In this document: piece after piece, positions 17,979 through 42,280 of the stretch | How the letters are laid out: each line of letters opens with the position of its first letter | Position numbering within the stretch: position 1 is the first letter of the stretch | NCBI GenBank assembly: GCA_009664345.1 | Contig: CP043547.1 | Location: 1,054,001-1,118,000 of the forward strand | Source: Planctomycetales bacterium 10988 | GTDB lineage: Bacteria > Planctomycetota > Planctomycetia > Pirellulales > Pb10988 | Length of the DNA stretch: 64,000 bases | Direction: 5' to 3' | The notes under the pieces: generated by a model | Databases searched by the model: none | What the model saw: only the letters and a program-made list of their open reading frames with translations | Told to the model about the DNA's origin: nothing | Program-made: the position numbers and the translations under genes

Positions 17979-18338
17979 CGTAAAGTCCTCCTTGAAGGGG
18001 ATGCCAAAGAAGTGAAGGTAGCATCCGAGAAATGAATGAATCTTTGAGAACTAGAGATCGGCTATAATTTGCCATCTTTTCCCGATTGGATCTAGAGGAA
18101 TTTTTTCTTGGGGATTTCCGGGCAAAAGAGTTGCATTCGCCAGGGAAGCGAAGATATTGCAAGGGGAAACGACAGAAATTTGAAAATCGGTCGGGAACTT
18201 TTCTCTACGCTTCTGCGTCAACGAATCAGATACCCCCAGCTAGCTAGGTAAGGGCCCGAGCCTTGGTAGCAAGTCCTACAAAATCACTGAGATGCCAGAC
18301 TTACCCGTTGATTAAATATGACAAAGGATTCATCACCC
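17979..18338. other. Intergenic region between a secreted-protein gene and the alpha-2-macroglobulin gene
   Basis: 360 bp between divergent genes. Only the Shine-Dalgarno AAAGGA (18323-18328) of the downstream gene and that of the upstream minus-strand gene are clear; no confident promoter, hairpin or RNA gene seen. Confidence 0.55.
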
Positions 18339-24524
<6,186 letters not shown>

Positions 24525-36341: not shown

Positions 36342-37496
36342 TTATTGAGACCCGAACTCGCCACTGTCATAGAGACTCCAAAACTCCGCAGGTTTCATTC
36401 GGCCTTCAAGCTGGATGCCCAATTCTTGCAGCGAGCCCATCTTACGGACGACATCCAGACCGGTCTTGATCTGATTGGGATTGAAGATCAGCCGGGTCAG
36501 CCGCAGGTCTTGCAAGTCGGTCAGATCGGTGACTTGTGTTTCTCCAATGTGCAAGCGTTGAAGGGGAAGTCGCGAGATCGGCTCCAAATTCGAAACAGGC
36601 GTTCGATGCAAGGTCAGGCTCACCAGCGGGGATTGCGAAAGTGGGGAAAGGTCCGAAACAGGGGTCATATTCAACCAAAGCATTTGCAATGGAGCCCCTT
36701 TGAGCGGCGAGAGGTCGCTCACTTTCGTATCATAAAGATTGAGTTCGATCAGAGGACACCCTGCCAAGGGTTCCAGGTATTCAACTTTCGTGCTATTTAA
36801 GTAGAGTTTATTGAGCGGCATTCCCTTGAGAGGGCTGATGTCATCAATGCGAGTTTCGTCGAGGTAAAGTTCACGCAGTGGCATTCCTTTTAACGGGGTT
36901 AAATCCTCGACCCGAGTTTGTAAAAGATCGAGCATTACCAGCGGCATTCCTTCCAGCGGCTTCAGATTGTCTACGCGGGTGCCCCGGGCGATGAGTTGTT
37001 GCAACTTCATCCCTTTTAGTGGCGACAGGTCCGTCACATTGGTGGCCGTAAGGTCCAAGCCGACTAACGGTAAACCCTCCAGTGGGGAAAGATCGCTGAC
37101 CGCTGTTTGAATCAAAGCAATCTGGGAAGGCAGTCCTTGATCAAAGATAAATTGCCCATCCATTTGATAACTTGGGTTCTTGGCCTTGATTGCGGCGTGA
37201 AGCTCCGGTTCGGTCATGTTTGCCCGCCGTGGCATGCCGACAGGCGAGCGACGGGGAGAGATCGGGCCGATAGCCGATTGGATCGCCGCTTCGGTTTCCT
37301 CCTCTGTGGATAACTCGGCCGACTCCATCTCTTCTGCGTCTTCTTCTACTGAGGTAGATTCTTCAGACGAAGAATTTTCCGTTTCTGAAGGCGATTTCTT
37401 GACGGAAGGTTGGCAGCCAACTAAGCCGAGTGTGCTGACCAAGGCAATCGAAAGTAGCGAGCAAAGCATGAGGTTGAAGGCGGGTCGAAAGTTCAT
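36342..37496 (-). CDS. Leucine-rich-repeat lipoprotein
   Basis: 384 residues. A lipoprotein signal (hydrophobic h-region then LVGC, about residues 9-27) is followed by a Ser/Glu-rich spacer (about 28-75). Then come about ten copies of a 21-residue LRR of the type PLxxLxLxxTxVxDLSPLKGM, and a C-terminal cap (MGSLQELGI, AEFWSLYDSGEF) that often ends planctomycete LRR proteins. It should be anchored to a membrane and present a protein-binding solenoid. ATG 37496 gives the lipobox; a TTG at 37580 would overlap the Hsp70 gene upstream. Gene order with the Hsp70 genes suggests co-transcription. Confidence 0.88.
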   Translation of the reverse strand: MNFRPAFNLMLCSLLSIALVSTLGLVGCQPSVKKSPSETENSSSEESTSVEEDAEEMESAELSTEEETEAAIQSAIGPISPRRSPVGMPRRANMTEPELHAAIKAKNPSYQMDGQFIFDQGLPSQIALIQTAVSDLSPLEGLPLVGLDLTATNVTDLSPLKGMKLQQLIARGTRVDNLKPLEGMPLVMLDLLQTRVEDLTPLKGMPLRELYLDETRIDDISPLKGMPLNKLYLNSTKVEYLEPLAGCPLIELNLYDTKVSDLSPLKGAPLQMLWLNMTPVSDLSPLSQSPLVSLTLHRTPVSNLEPISRLPLQRLHIGETQVTDLTDLQDLRLTRLIFNPNQIKTGLDVVRKMGSLQELGIQLEGRMKPAEFWSLYDSGEFGSQ

Positions 37497-37555
37497 GGGA
37501 TTACTTTCAGTGAGGCAAGCGGGAGCGTTCAAGGGGGGATTGCTGGTAAGCGACG

Positions 37556-39097
37556 TTAGGCCATGCGGTCGTCGATCCAAATCTTCCAGGCATCCATTTG
37601 ATCCGCACTAAGCCCGTTTTCTCGTTGGATCTCTTGTTTAAAAGGCTTGTCGTTTTCGGTGCCTGGGAAGCTGACCGCCACGGCCAACCGTCCATTTTCA
37701 CCGTAATTAAAGAAAACTTCAACCGGGCTGAGGGCAGGTAAATTACCGGGAAGCGGCTCAATGACACATTCACCGATGGTTGTGCAGGCATCCGGCGAAG
37801 TGCCTTCCCCTTCGACAATGGTGACTTTGACGTTTCGCTGATTCGCCTTTTGTGTTTTAAAAATACGTTTTGCTTTGATGGGCAACGTGCTGTTTCGAGG
37901 GATAACAATCACATTTTGTTGGCGATTCGTTTTTCGACTAAGTCCCAAGATCCCAAGGCTGTGACTGTTTACATTACGGATTTTGAACGAAGGCGGTTGA
38001 CCTTGAGCCCTGGCAATGAGAAGCCCTGCCCGTAAAGCCGCACCGTGGGCAACGGCTTCATCCGCGGAAACGGCATCTTCCGGGGGTTTACCTGCTAGAT
38101 TTGCCAAGGCTTCTCGTACCATGGGCATTCGCGACGAACCACCAACTAGGAGAATGCGATCGATTGCCGGCCAATCCATTTCTACCGTTCGTAAAAGCTG
38201 GCGGGTCGTAAAGAGAGTACGATCCAACAGATCTCCGGTCAGTTCTTGAAGCAACTCTTGCGACAGTTCGACACGGAGGGTTTTTCCTCGATAGTCACAC
38301 GTGACGGCCGTTTTGGATCGGGCGGAAAGCGTTCGTTTGGCATCTTCACATTCTCGCCAGAGCCGGGCCGCTTGATCTTCATCTTCTCGAGGATCGAGGT
38401 CATATTCTTGTTGGAATTGCTGAGCAACGTAATCGATTAACCGCTGATCCCAATCACGCCCTCCAAGTTCGACGTCGCCATCGGTGGCAATCGCTTTGAA
38501 CTCGCTGCCATGCACTGTCATCAAGGTTACATCAAACGTTCCGCCCCCCAGATCGTAGACCAATACATTGAGCGGCTTCGTGGATTCGCCTTCTTCATTG
38601 AGAAAGCCATGACGAAAACCATAAGAGATTGCAGCGGCGGTCGGTTCGTTGATAATATCGAGGACATTCAACCCGGCCATTTTTCCGGCATCCTGCGTGG
38701 CCTTGCGTCGCGGTTCGTCAAAGAACGCGGGCACGGTGATCACACAATATTTGAAATCTCCTATGAGGCGGGCCGCATCATTTTTCAGCTTTTTTAAGAT
38801 GCAAGCTTCGATCACTTCCGGCGGAAATTGATTGCCACTGATTGCCTTGCGGTAGGCACGCCGCCCGATATCTCGTTTGGCACATTCCGCAATCAAGGAA
38901 CTTTCGGTCCCAATCGCTTTGAGGGCTTCTTTTCCGACGATAATGTCATCTTCATCGATCAAGACGAGACTTGGCGTCAGAAGTTCTCCTTCTGCATTCA
39001 CTAAAGTCACGGGGCGACCGGTTTCATCGAGGTGAGCAATGGCCGAATAGGTCGTTCCTAGGTCAATGCCTACGGCAGCGTACTTTAGGTCTTTCAT
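37556..39097 (-). CDS. Lid-less Hsp70 family protein (short)
   Basis: 513 residues. Complete actin-like ATPase domain: GIDLGTTYSAIAHLDE (phosphate 1), VITVPAFFDEPRRKATQDAG, NEPTAAAISYG (connect 1), VYDLGGGTFDVTL (phosphate 2) and LLVGGSSRMPMVREAL (adenosine). The C-terminal part (about 380-513) resembles a shortened substrate-binding beta domain. The alpha-helical lid and EEVD-type tail of DnaK are missing. No dnaJ or grpE is adjacent. It is a paralogue of 39437-41881; both share an ending of the type LPxNLPxxxPVxxxxxYxxNGRL. Confidence 0.93.
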   Translation of the reverse strand: MKDLKYAAVGIDLGTTYSAIAHLDETGRPVTLVNAEGELLTPSLVLIDEDDIIVGKEALKAIGTESSLIAECAKRDIGRRAYRKAISGNQFPPEVIEACILKKLKNDAARLIGDFKYCVITVPAFFDEPRRKATQDAGKMAGLNVLDIINEPTAAAISYGFRHGFLNEEGESTKPLNVLVYDLGGGTFDVTLMTVHGSEFKAIATDGDVELGGRDWDQRLIDYVAQQFQQEYDLDPREDEDQAARLWRECEDAKRTLSARSKTAVTCDYRGKTLRVELSQELLQELTGDLLDRTLFTTRQLLRTVEMDWPAIDRILLVGGSSRMPMVREALANLAGKPPEDAVSADEAVAHGAALRAGLLIARAQGQPPSFKIRNVNSHSLGILGLSRKTNRQQNVIVIPRNSTLPIKAKRIFKTQKANQRNVKVTIVEGEGTSPDACTTIGECVIEPLPGNLPALSPVEVFFNYGENGRLAVAVSFPGTENDKPFKQEIQRENGLSADQMDAWKIWIDDRMA

Positions 39098-39436
39098 CCG
39101 TTAGGACCCAACTTTCTAACTATTATCATTCCTGGCAAGCGTAAAGCTTGACCAATTCGTGAGTTGCCTGTGACTTCTATCACTCTAAATAGAGAAGAGA
39201 TCATGGCCAAGTCTTGTTCCTTGCGAATGGTGGCGAAGTTGATTCTACATTCTTCTCAGGATGGGTTTGTTCTCTAACAACACCGATAGATTCTGAGAAG
39301 AAAGGGCTGGCTGAAATCAATACCTTTTGGTTTACTTTCTGCAGATTGAATTCACGATGAAGGAGGTTCAATGAAGTTGCCAATATGCTAGTTTTCGCCT
39401 GACTGAGAATTTTTGTCAACGCCCAAAGATATTTTG
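39098..39436. other. Intergenic region between the two Hsp70-family genes
   Basis: 339 bp. No CIRCE inverted repeat. On the plus strand GAAGGAGGTTCAATG (39358-39373) is a strong ribosome site followed by a six-codon frame ending at 39391. On the minus strand TTGACAAAAATT at about 39405-39418 resembles a -35, without a clear -10. Confidence 0.5.
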
Positions 39437-41881
39437 TCACGGGGAATCTTCGGAAACAGGGGGCACTTGTTTCAACCCAGGGAGGTCTAAATTCAGGACA
39501 TTCGCCGAAGGTACAAACCTAGCAACAAGATAATAAGCACAAATGATCGACATTCCTCCCAGGAAAATCCAGAGAAAGACTCCCAGCCGCTTTTTCCGTC
39601 TTCGTCGTTCCCGAGCTGCCAGACTAGGCCCTTCCATGTCCGGAGAAGATGCGGCACTTGTGGAGCTTCTGCCAGTGGATGCGGACTGCAATCTTCGATA
39701 GCCATCAAAGGAAGAGGAAGGAGTCTCACGAATCGAAAATCCCGGAGTCCCCGGACGTTGCGGAGCAGCCGGAGCGCTGGTTGAGTTAATTTGGAGAGTT
39801 TGCGTTTGAGTTGCGGTTGCTAAGCCGGAGCCGAACTCATAGGAATCGTTGTAGGAGGTATACTGCTCGGTCTCCTGCTCCTCCACGGCGCTCGCCTGTA
39901 ATCCTTCTCCAAAAGTGTTTGGAATGCGATGTCCACCCGATGGCCCCGTCGTTGGGGAGCGGAGCGAGGAACTTGGTGGAAAGGAAGGCTTTCGGGGGGA
40001 ATTCTCCGCCGGACCCGAGACGGACTGAGCCACAATCTGTTCATATTCTGCCGTTATGGAATCGGTTTCCGACTCTGGCGTGTCCAAGAACTCATCGAGG
40101 TCGTCATACGTTTCGACAACCGGGGCTTCGAATTTTTCAGGGGCTTGCTGCGTGGAAGCAACCGGCATCGTGGGTGCAGAGGGCGGAACGGAGGGGCCCG
40201 TCAGAAAGTCATCTTCCTCCAAGAATCCCGATGCAGCAGCTTCCTCAGTAGGTGTCACCGTCGGAGCCGAAAGTGGAACAGCAGGATACTCCTGCTCTTG
40301 GGGCCTTCCTTTCATATCCTCTTCAATGGCGATGTCGAAAGCATCCATGCCGCCTTCCTCCGCCAGAATATTCTTCCAAGCATTGATCTGTAAATCATCA
40401 AGGCTTTCTTCCCGTTCCAGCTCTAGCGAAACGGCGTTCTGGGTGTTTTCGACTTGTGCTTGAACCTTCAGACGTCCATTCACTTCGTATTCATACGTGA
40501 TATGAACCGGCCAATCCTTGGGCAAATTCGGAGGAAGCTCCCTTAAAACGGTACGACCAATTCGCGAGCAATCCTCGGGATCGCTGCTTTCCCCTTCCAG
40601 AACTTGCACTACGATGGAACGTTGATTGGCTTGCCGGGTCACACACTTCAACGTTTTCTTAGCGGGAAGCGGGGTATTTTTCTGAATCAGAATTGTATTC
40701 GTCTTCTGAGAAGTTTGCAGATCATATCCTTCAATTCCCAGGCTATGGGCGTTGACATTCGTGACATCGAACGTCGGCTGATGCCCCGCTTCCCCTTTGG
40801 CGGCAAGAAGATAACGGGAATAGATGGCCGCTCCGCGGGCGACGGCTTCATCGGGATTGACTCCATGATCGGGTTCGATGCCGGAAATATCCCGCAACAT
40901 CGCGGCAACCATCGGCATGCGAGTCGAGCCACCTGTCATCAAAATCCGGTCGATTTTGTCCCAAGTGAGTCCGGCGGTTTTGATCAAATTGTTCGTAGTA
41001 AACTTCGTTCGCTCCAATAAATCGAGCGTTGCCTCTTCGAAGTCAGCCCTAGTGATCTTGATTTCAATTTCTTGGCCGGCATGATGAACGGTGACTTTGG
41101 CACGCTGACGAGCGGTGAGGGTGTGCTTGGCTTCTTCCGCTTGTCCAATGAGCCGTTGCATGGAAGCAAGGTCTTCGCGGGGATCAAGAATATGCTCGGC
41201 CATGAAGCGTTCGGCCATCAGGTCGACTAGACGCATATCCCAATCGTAACCACCTAGTTGCACATCCCCATCGGTGCAAATGGTTTTCAGATCGCCGGCC
41301 TGCATATCAATAAGAGTTACATCAAACGTCCCCCCGCCTAGATCATAGACAACGACCTTAATTCGCTCTTGCGGGGCACCGTATTTGGTGAGATATCCCA
41401 ATTGCTCGCCAAAAGAAAGCGCGGCGGCAGTCGGCTCATTAAGAATATCGAGGACATTGAGACCCGCCATTACCCCGGCATCGTACGTTGCCCGGCGGCG
41501 AGGTTCATCGAAAAAGGCCGGCACGGTGATGATCGATTGAAGTTCCGGGCCGATTGCTTCAAGCATATCCTCTTTGAGTTTACGGAGGATATAAGATTGA
41601 ATCACTTCGGGGCGGAGTTGCTTGCCATTGATCGGGCGGGAGTAGAAAGGCTTACCCATATCGCGTTTGGCACAGGAAGCGACGCGGTCCGCTTTCAACA
41701 CAGCGACGCTTTTGGCTTCCTTCCCGACCACAACTTCTTGATCATCAAACAGGACGACGCTGGGAGTAACGGTACTCCCTTCGCTGTTTCGGAGTAAAGC
41801 ACTTCGCCCGGTCTCATCGATCCAGGCCATGGCCGAGTAGGTCGTCCCAAGATCGATTCCTACCGCTTTGCTATTGGACAT
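39437..41881 (-). CDS. Membrane-anchored lid-less Hsp70 family protein
   Basis: 814 residues. Hsp70 ATPase domain (1-385) with GIDLGTTYSAMAWIDE, ITVPAFFDEPRRRATYDAG, NEPTAAALSFG, VYDLGGGTFDVTL and LMTGGSTRMPMVAAML, then a shortened substrate-binding beta domain to about 530. A Pro/Ser/Glu-rich, low-complexity linker of about 220 residues follows, then RRRRKKR and a single membrane helix (about 765-787), and a tail of about 25 residues. The charge pattern predicts the ATPase inside and the tail outside. ATG 41881 is chosen over TTG 41887. Paralogue of the short gene downstream. Confidence 0.93.
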   Translation of the reverse strand: MSNSKAVGIDLGTTYSAMAWIDETGRSALLRNSEGSTVTPSVVLFDDQEVVVGKEAKSVAVLKADRVASCAKRDMGKPFYSRPINGKQLRPEVIQSYILRKLKEDMLEAIGPELQSIITVPAFFDEPRRRATYDAGVMAGLNVLDILNEPTAAALSFGEQLGYLTKYGAPQERIKVVVYDLGGGTFDVTLIDMQAGDLKTICTDGDVQLGGYDWDMRLVDLMAERFMAEHILDPREDLASMQRLIGQAEEAKHTLTARQRAKVTVHHAGQEIEIKITRADFEEATLDLLERTKFTTNNLIKTAGLTWDKIDRILMTGGSTRMPMVAAMLRDISGIEPDHGVNPDEAVARGAAIYSRYLLAAKGEAGHQPTFDVTNVNAHSLGIEGYDLQTSQKTNTILIQKNTPLPAKKTLKCVTRQANQRSIVVQVLEGESSDPEDCSRIGRTVLRELPPNLPKDWPVHITYEYEVNGRLKVQAQVENTQNAVSLELEREESLDDLQINAWKNILAEEGGMDAFDIAIEEDMKGRPQEQEYPAVPLSAPTVTPTEEAAASGFLEEDDFLTGPSVPPSAPTMPVASTQQAPEKFEAPVVETYDDLDEFLDTPESETDSITAEYEQIVAQSVSGPAENSPRKPSFPPSSSLRSPTTGPSGGHRIPNTFGEGLQASAVEEQETEQYTSYNDSYEFGSGLATATQTQTLQINSTSAPAAPQRPGTPGFSIRETPSSSFDGYRRLQSASTGRSSTSAASSPDMEGPSLAARERRRRKKRLGVFLWIFLGGMSIICAYYLVARFVPSANVLNLDLPGLKQVPPVSEDSP

Positions 41882-42280
41882 GTTCAACCATTGGCGATGG
41901 GGTCACCGCCAGCCTCCTACGTTCGCATTGAGAAAGGCACTGCTGCAAAAGATGGAAAGGAGATGCGTTCGAATCGCACAATGAAATGAGCATTGAATTC
42001 CCTTGATCCTAACAAATGTCATCTCTTTACTCAACTTCCGCCCTACGGAAAGAAGACTAGAAATTGGTAATTCCAACTTCCGCGAAGGGAATAACTCTTC
42101 TATCTTTTGCAACCCCTACTTTCTCTATTTTAACGTGAAATGTCTTTTTGTCGCTTGAGAAAATAAACGAGAGAGGGAAACTCCAACGAAAAAACTCCCA
42201 GAAAGCTGTATGGAAGGGTGGATTCCATGACTTTCCGGGAGTTTAAATCTTACTCGATTAAATAATCTGAAAGGCTCGCT
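41882..42280. other. Intergenic region between nrdJ and the large Hsp70 gene
   Basis: 399 bp. Holds the nrdJ terminator (42188-42244); otherwise no convincing gene, RNA or promoter. Confidence 0.55.
42188..42244 (-). terminator. Rho-independent terminator after nrdJ
   Basis: AAACTCCCAGAAAG (42192-42205) pairs with CTTTCCGGGAGTTT (42231-42244) with one mismatch, 25-base loop. On the minus strand the stem ends in GGGAGTTTTTTCG. Lies about 40 bp beyond the nrdJ stop. Confidence 0.85.

Follow-up and report, generated by a model that had tools for sequence, protein, structure and literature searches.

Lidless Hsp70 genes in a planctomycete and a candidate family of J-domain partners lacking the HPD motif

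Introduction

The His-Pro-Asp (HPD) motif of J-domain proteins is treated as indispensable for their function in Hsp70 systems such as DnaK-DnaJ-GrpE. Structurally, R167 of DnaK contacts D35 of the DnaJ HPD motif, H33 contacts the backbone of linker residue L391, and D35 contacts DnaK Q378 as well (PMC8215388). R167 also pairs with linker residue D393 and with D481, and changes at R167 and D393 disrupt the stimulation of DnaK by DnaJ (PMC7289447). The D35-R167 contact can be re-made, since DnaK R167H suppresses DnaJ D35N (Suh et al. 1998, as cited in PMC7289447 and PMC5519331) and DnaK R167A is suppressed by DnaJ D35N (PMC13012618). J proteins without HPD are called "enigmatic" in a 2026 review, which names them a subject for future study (PMC13254874). 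Here we analyzed two tandem Hsp70 genes without a helical lid, denoted S and L, in a 64-kb stretch of the genome of Planctomycetales bacterium 10988 (the window; positions 1054001-1118000 of a 6.65 Mb single-contig genome), together with a family of J-domain proteins lacking HPD (pJ) that we recognised as recurring neighbours of lidless Hsp70 genes. From sequence comparison, we consider it reasonably likely that the S/L family belongs to an Hsp70-J system whose contact has been rewired and which operates in parallel with DnaK-DnaJ.

Results

S and L matched Pfam PF00012 with 375 and 368 bits, respectively (cut-off 20.6), and both matches stopped near the expected start of the lid (about profile position 508 of 599). 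The DnaK equivalog TIGR02350 was not reached (337 and 364 bits against a cut-off of 822.6). The alpha-helical lid of DnaK was missing from both proteins: S stopped after one helix, about 30 residues past the beta substrate-binding domain (SBD-beta), and had neither a transmembrane (TM) helix nor a signal peptide, while L went on for about 330 residues as a linker, ending in RRRRKKR, a TM helix and a 25-residue tail. A basic stretch flanking a TM helix stays cytoplasmic under the positive-inside rule, and because such a stretch precedes the helix of L, its Hsp70 part is probably cytoplasmic. Modelled with AlphaFold2 (pLDDT 75.6), S consisted of the nucleotide-binding domain (NBD), SBD-beta and a single C-terminal helix (residues 498-511), and the model aligned to DnaK structures, including J-domain-bound DnaK (5nro), at TMq 0.85.

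The residues that DnaK uses to meet DnaJ were changed throughout the family. The position of DnaK R167 was Asp in all 83 aligned D-type members (D167) and Gly or Ser in 13 sister-type members (a count that includes a degenerate copy from genome G012), and the Hsp70s with Gly or Ser formed a single clade (support 100/99). In S and L, the changes were R167 to Asp, D393 to Asn, D481 to Asn and E217 to Lys, with P419 retained. The equivalent of Q378 was Arg or Tyr in the window proteins and was replaced in 93 of 96 family members. The GrpE signature loop was absent from S and L (about six residues missing), and nearly all family members lacked the loop and carried the linker NVNSHSLG. The equivalents of the catalytic residues K70, P143, R151, E171 and T199 were intact in nearly all members, so that S and L are predicted to hydrolyze ATP. 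Arg167 was kept in the three canonical Hsp70s of the same genome and in E. coli DnaK, HscA and HscC. One locus of this genome (L056, 2346000-2364000) holds a canonical DnaK gene and, in the 8 kb after it, genes for two divergent members of the Hsp70 family (607 and 976 aa). Another R167-type Hsp70 of the genome (L057:6147-9140, about 997 aa) has a very long C-terminal extension and adjoins an HPD-type DnaJ gene.

In a phylogenetic tree, S and L fell in a planctomycete clade of lidless Hsp70s apart from DnaK, HscA and HscC (support 100/100), within which the S clade (100/99) and the L clade (100/100) were each supported. The nearest named relatives of S came from Pirellulales and Pirellulaceae metagenome-assembled genomes (MAGs), so the order of the genome is probably Pirellulales. 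Three further lidless Hsp70s were encoded in the same genome outside the window. An L gene directly upstream of an S gene on the same strand was found in 17 genomes of the order, spanning seven families (14 located by signature positions, plus G004, G022 and G012), with two genes intervening between L and S in G020. The tandem was also found on two MAG contigs (L072 and L073). Among eleven further tandems that were read out, a hydrophobic segment was recognisable at the end of ten L copies; in the remaining one (L131), the reading continued in frame beyond the expected end and the tail was not resolved. Other tandems were often spaced by anything from a few bases to several tens, suggesting that L and S are likely co-transcribed; the spacing in the window is 339 bp. 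No conserved third gene was found beside the tandem, and its flanks differed, including Uma2, MobA-like, helicase, radical SAM and cytochrome/HEAT genes. The upstream Hsp70 of the G012 tandem (L080:7290-9395) kept its membrane tail and was catalytically degenerate (G167, E171D, T199K); judged from these replacements, it is a pseudo-ATPase.

The pJ proteins share an N-terminal domain with the pattern (Y)(R/H)xWLGI...YxLLG...HVR(K/T)(F/Y)...LLNE(L/I)AxAxxCLxDxxxKxxYD, which by four sequence tests is a J-domain homologue. One pJ of the same genome scored 30.6 bits against Pfam DnaJ in a single-genome search and 25.1 bits, below the cut-off of 27.8, when scanned alone. Searched against the PDB, the pJ profile gave J-domains as nearly all top matches (best E 1.6e-4); it aligned with the J-domain in hhalign at 96.5% and E 7e-10 and recovered the canonical DnaJ of the same genome at E 3.9e-9. 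HPD was absent at the end of helix II in all aligned pJ proteins, and HPD strings elsewhere were chance-like (L128 and the G167 lineage). The full proteins carried MshEN with a TM helix, FHA, Ig-like, WD40/PEGA/LamG, LRR/NPCBM or FGE-sulfatase modules. Nine pJ proteins were encoded in the genome of the window, compared with three HPD-type DnaJ proteins.

Several pJ loci showed further features. At L055:9061-10098 and in related loci, spanning two orders in all, a gene for a J-like domain with MshEN and a TM helix lies directly downstream of a lidless Hsp70 gene. The adjacent proteins of L055 measure 542 aa (Hsp70) and 345 aa (J-MshEN). Some MshEN domains bind cyclic di-GMP. Three tandem genes for HPD-less J-like proteins were found at L137:425-6734 (G014), in a taxonomic family without the D167 signature. 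The pJ search covered Planctomycetota and a viral collection and gave one viral match (L106:449-1342, IMGVR_UViG_3300005663_000052), on a phage-like contig with tape-measure-like and tail-like genes. This J-domain protein lacks HPD and contains a stretch resembling a zinc ribbon.

We then assessed the linkage of pJ genes to D167 Hsp70 genes across 97 genomes from the order, many of them fragmented drafts, which together had 109 signature sites. The sites were found by an exact DNA signature, from which variants such as DVVNEP escape. A pJ match lay within 4.5 kb of 42 of the 109 sites, across 36 genomes, against a chance expectation of about 0.6 (random placement in 5.5 Mb genomes). Neighbourhoods of this kind had supplied the seeds of the pJ profile, so a fair tally is limited to the 22 genomes that supplied none. 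Within the order, pJ was present in each of the 57 signature-bearing genomes, compared with 21 of the 40 without the signature; like the linkage count, this comparison ignores phylogeny. In a wider sample of the phylum, pJ was present in eight of nine signature genomes. The ninth match (G032, no pJ) had a very long branch and was rejected as a family member. In other classes, one Hsp70 gene was flanked by two pJ genes (L134), one pJ gene had Hsp70 genes on both sides (L153), and a 959-aa open reading frame (ORF) fused pJ to a degenerate Hsp70 that still had Asp at the 167 position (L192:3-2879, G088). L-clade Hsp70 genes adjoined a divergent pJ gene in three genomes (L090, L095 and L129). A scan of the contig collection gave just eight Hsp70 loci and no pJ.

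The residue at the 167 position of the Hsp70 was matched by a helix-II column of the neighbouring pJ, which corresponds to DnaJ H33 in an ungapped alignment of uncertain register. Beside D167 Hsp70s, this column was Arg in 23 cases, Lys in 5, Gln in 1 and Asp in 1 (R/K in 28/30); it was Gln in 5/5 cases beside G167 and in 7/7 beside S167. These matched residues are suggestive of a specific contact. A second charge swap, between J-domain K26 and Hsp70 position 217, showed no clean pattern and was rejected.

The features of the window are listed in Table 1. A preliminary description of this DNA had placed the two Hsp70 genes and a leucine-rich repeat (LRR) lipoprotein gene on one strand, at gaps of 339 and 60 bp (the latter at 37497-37556), and had described both Hsp70s as having a full ATPase domain and no lid. 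The ORF positions and the domain analysis above agree with this. The start of L is either ATG at 41881 or TTG at 41887. The description had also noted that no dnaJ or grpE was near; none was found in the 64-kb window, nor was an HPD-less J-domain gene, although the usual neighbour of the family is such a gene. It had missed the TM helix of L, the R167D change, the three other lidless Hsp70s and the J-like partner family outside the window. An Rfam scan gave no matches, promoter and terminator scans showed no enrichment relative to shuffles, and a search for DNA similarity to plasmids gave no match. A 2068-aa ORF lies at 18318-24524 of the window.

Table 1 Features of the S/L locus, in window positions.
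Feature	Position	Strand
S, soluble lidless Hsp70, 513 aa (NBD, SBD-beta and one terminal helix)	37556..39097	minus
L, lidless Hsp70, 814 aa (TM anchor at the C terminus after a long low-complexity linker)	39437..41881	minus
L transmembrane helix, residues 769-789, FLWIFLGGMSIICAYYLVARF, preceded by RRRRKKR	39515..39577	minus
S Asp147 codon, aligned with DnaK R167 (J-domain contact)	38657..38659	minus
L Asp145 codon, aligned with DnaK R167	41447..41449	minus
S linker motif NVNSHSLG, replacing DnaK LLLDVTPLSLG	37952..37975	minus
L linker motif NVNAHSLG	40736..40759	minus
LRR lipoprotein, 384 aa, lipobox LVGC, ATG at 37496	36342..37496	minus

Discussion

We propose that S and L are the soluble and the membrane-tethered member of an Hsp70 family apart from DnaK-DnaJ-GrpE. 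L would be tethered to the inner membrane, its Hsp70 part facing the cytoplasm, and S would be made together with it. Their co-chaperones would be pJ proteins, many of which have a TM helix and a sensory or ligand-binding module. A pJ may dock at the same NBD/linker face that DnaJ uses, with the DnaJ D35-DnaK R167 ion pair swapped, so that the Asp is in the Hsp70 and usually an Arg or Lys near the HPD site is in pJ. Both halves of the pair would have been lost together and then replaced. If so, canonical J-domains should not drive these Hsp70s, nor should pJ proteins drive DnaK. Fast binding and release of clients would be expected because the lid and the GrpE loop are missing, and S and L could act as ATP-switched docking factors at membrane complexes. 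More tentatively, at a confidence a little short of even, HPD-less J-domains may activate D167 Hsp70s, so that one cytoplasm would house two Hsp70 networks blind to each other, the second of them membrane-tethered and steered by the FHA, MshEN or other modules of pJ.

Several findings weigh against the rewired contact. No pJ gene lies near the S/L pair of the window, and S-clade genes were never seen adjoining pJ in the neighbourhoods read; the window pair is linked to pJ by family and would have to use a pJ encoded elsewhere in its genome. In 21 of the 97 genomes of the order, pJ occurred without a detected D167 Hsp70. The AlphaFold2 model of the phage pJ, made from a single sequence, had a pLDDT of 57 and no significant structural match. 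In the G167 lineage, an HPD string occurs five residues further along pJ. The register of pJ at the HPD site is uncertain by about three residues, with mafft placing Arg at H33 and hhalign a gap. There are exceptions to the covariation, namely pJ Gln with D167 (L130) and pJ Asp with D167 (L180). As the G/S167 Hsp70s are one clade, the covariation amounts to about one event, and its Fisher value of 8e-9 is no test of coevolution.

The main rival, which we regard as unlikely, is that R167D uncouples these Hsp70s from J control by holding NBD and SBD-beta in contact as if a J-domain were bound, with pJ acting only as a recruiter that does not stimulate the ATPase. Simulations set DnaK(R167D) against J-domain binding for the NBD-SBD-beta distance (PMC7289447), recruiter roles have been proposed for HPD-less J proteins (PMC13254874), and the D393 and D481 equivalents of S and L are Asn, all in line with such a switch. 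However, the intact catalytic residues in nearly all members suggest that regulated hydrolysis matters, and the matched Arg/Lys or Gln at the pJ site hints at a specific contact. A membrane-linked Hsp70 system with fast exchange is expected under both this switch and the rewired contact; what separates the two is whether pJ stimulates the ATPase. It is still less probable that S and L are ordinary paralogues whose lid was lost through drift, with canonical DnaJ and GrpE as their helpers. The DnaK-family fold and catalytic residues are kept and the genome encodes HPD-type J proteins, but R167, Q378, D393 of the linker and the GrpE loop have all been altered in an old, diverse clade with conserved operons, and changes at two of these residues, R167 and D393, impair DnaJ stimulation in DnaK itself. 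A general-chaperone role, which the preliminary description had also doubted, is unlikely.

That description had instead proposed an Hsp70-like ATPase pair working with the membrane-anchored LRR lipoprotein, possibly in the handling of envelope proteins or in signalling, which we consider very improbable. The short same-strand spacing speaks for it, as does an L-clade neighbour in G009, a pJ-TM-LRR-NPCBM protein. In contrast, homologues of the lipoprotein, present in about half of the relatives, never adjoined these Hsp70s in about 24 sampled genomes, and we rejected it as a conserved partner. A signal peptide with a lipobox marks an exported lipoprotein. Since the LRR protein has both (lipobox LVGC) and S has neither a signal nor a TM helix, the two are expected on opposite sides of the membrane, in different compartments. 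The lipoprotein is probably a bystander. What stands of the proposal is the pair itself: the L-S gene order is conserved, the LRR linkage is not, and the link to the membrane lies in L's own TM helix.

If the rewired contact holds, it would be an example of two Hsp70 networks kept insulated from each other within one cell. With many natural HPD-less J-domains encoded beside R167-less Hsp70s, the HPD question can be tested directly on natural pairs. We found no description of a system of pJ and R167-less Hsp70s in the open-access literature, which our search covered to the exclusion of subscription papers.

On this reading, S, L and pJ would form a variant of known Hsp70-J systems without HPD and without R167. 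They share with DnaK-DnaJ-GrpE the Hsp70 NBD and SBD-beta with catalytic residues and, as predicted from sequence profiles, the J-domain fold of the helper, and differ from it in lacking the lid and the GrpE loop, in R167D/G/S, in NVNSHSLG instead of LLLDVTPLSLG, in a helper without HPD and in the membrane anchor of L. E. coli HscC with DjlB/DjlC is likewise a specialised Hsp70 whose dedicated J proteins are membrane-linked and carry an altered motif (HPE), but HscC retains R167 and the lid, and HPE retains the acid. HscA and HscB are a dedicated Hsp70-J pair encoded side by side, also without the GrpE loop, whereas HscA retains R167, the lid and the LLLD linker, and HscB retains HPD. The type IV HPD-less J proteins Pam16 and DnaJB13 resemble pJ in having a J-domain without HPD; Pam16, however, teams with a canonical J protein against a canonical Hsp70 (PMC13254874), whereas pJ genes come with an R167-less Hsp70 of their own. 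The layout of NBD and SBD-beta is that of lid-truncated DnaK and BiP constructs (5obu, 7a4u), which were made in the laboratory, whereas S and L represent a natural family.

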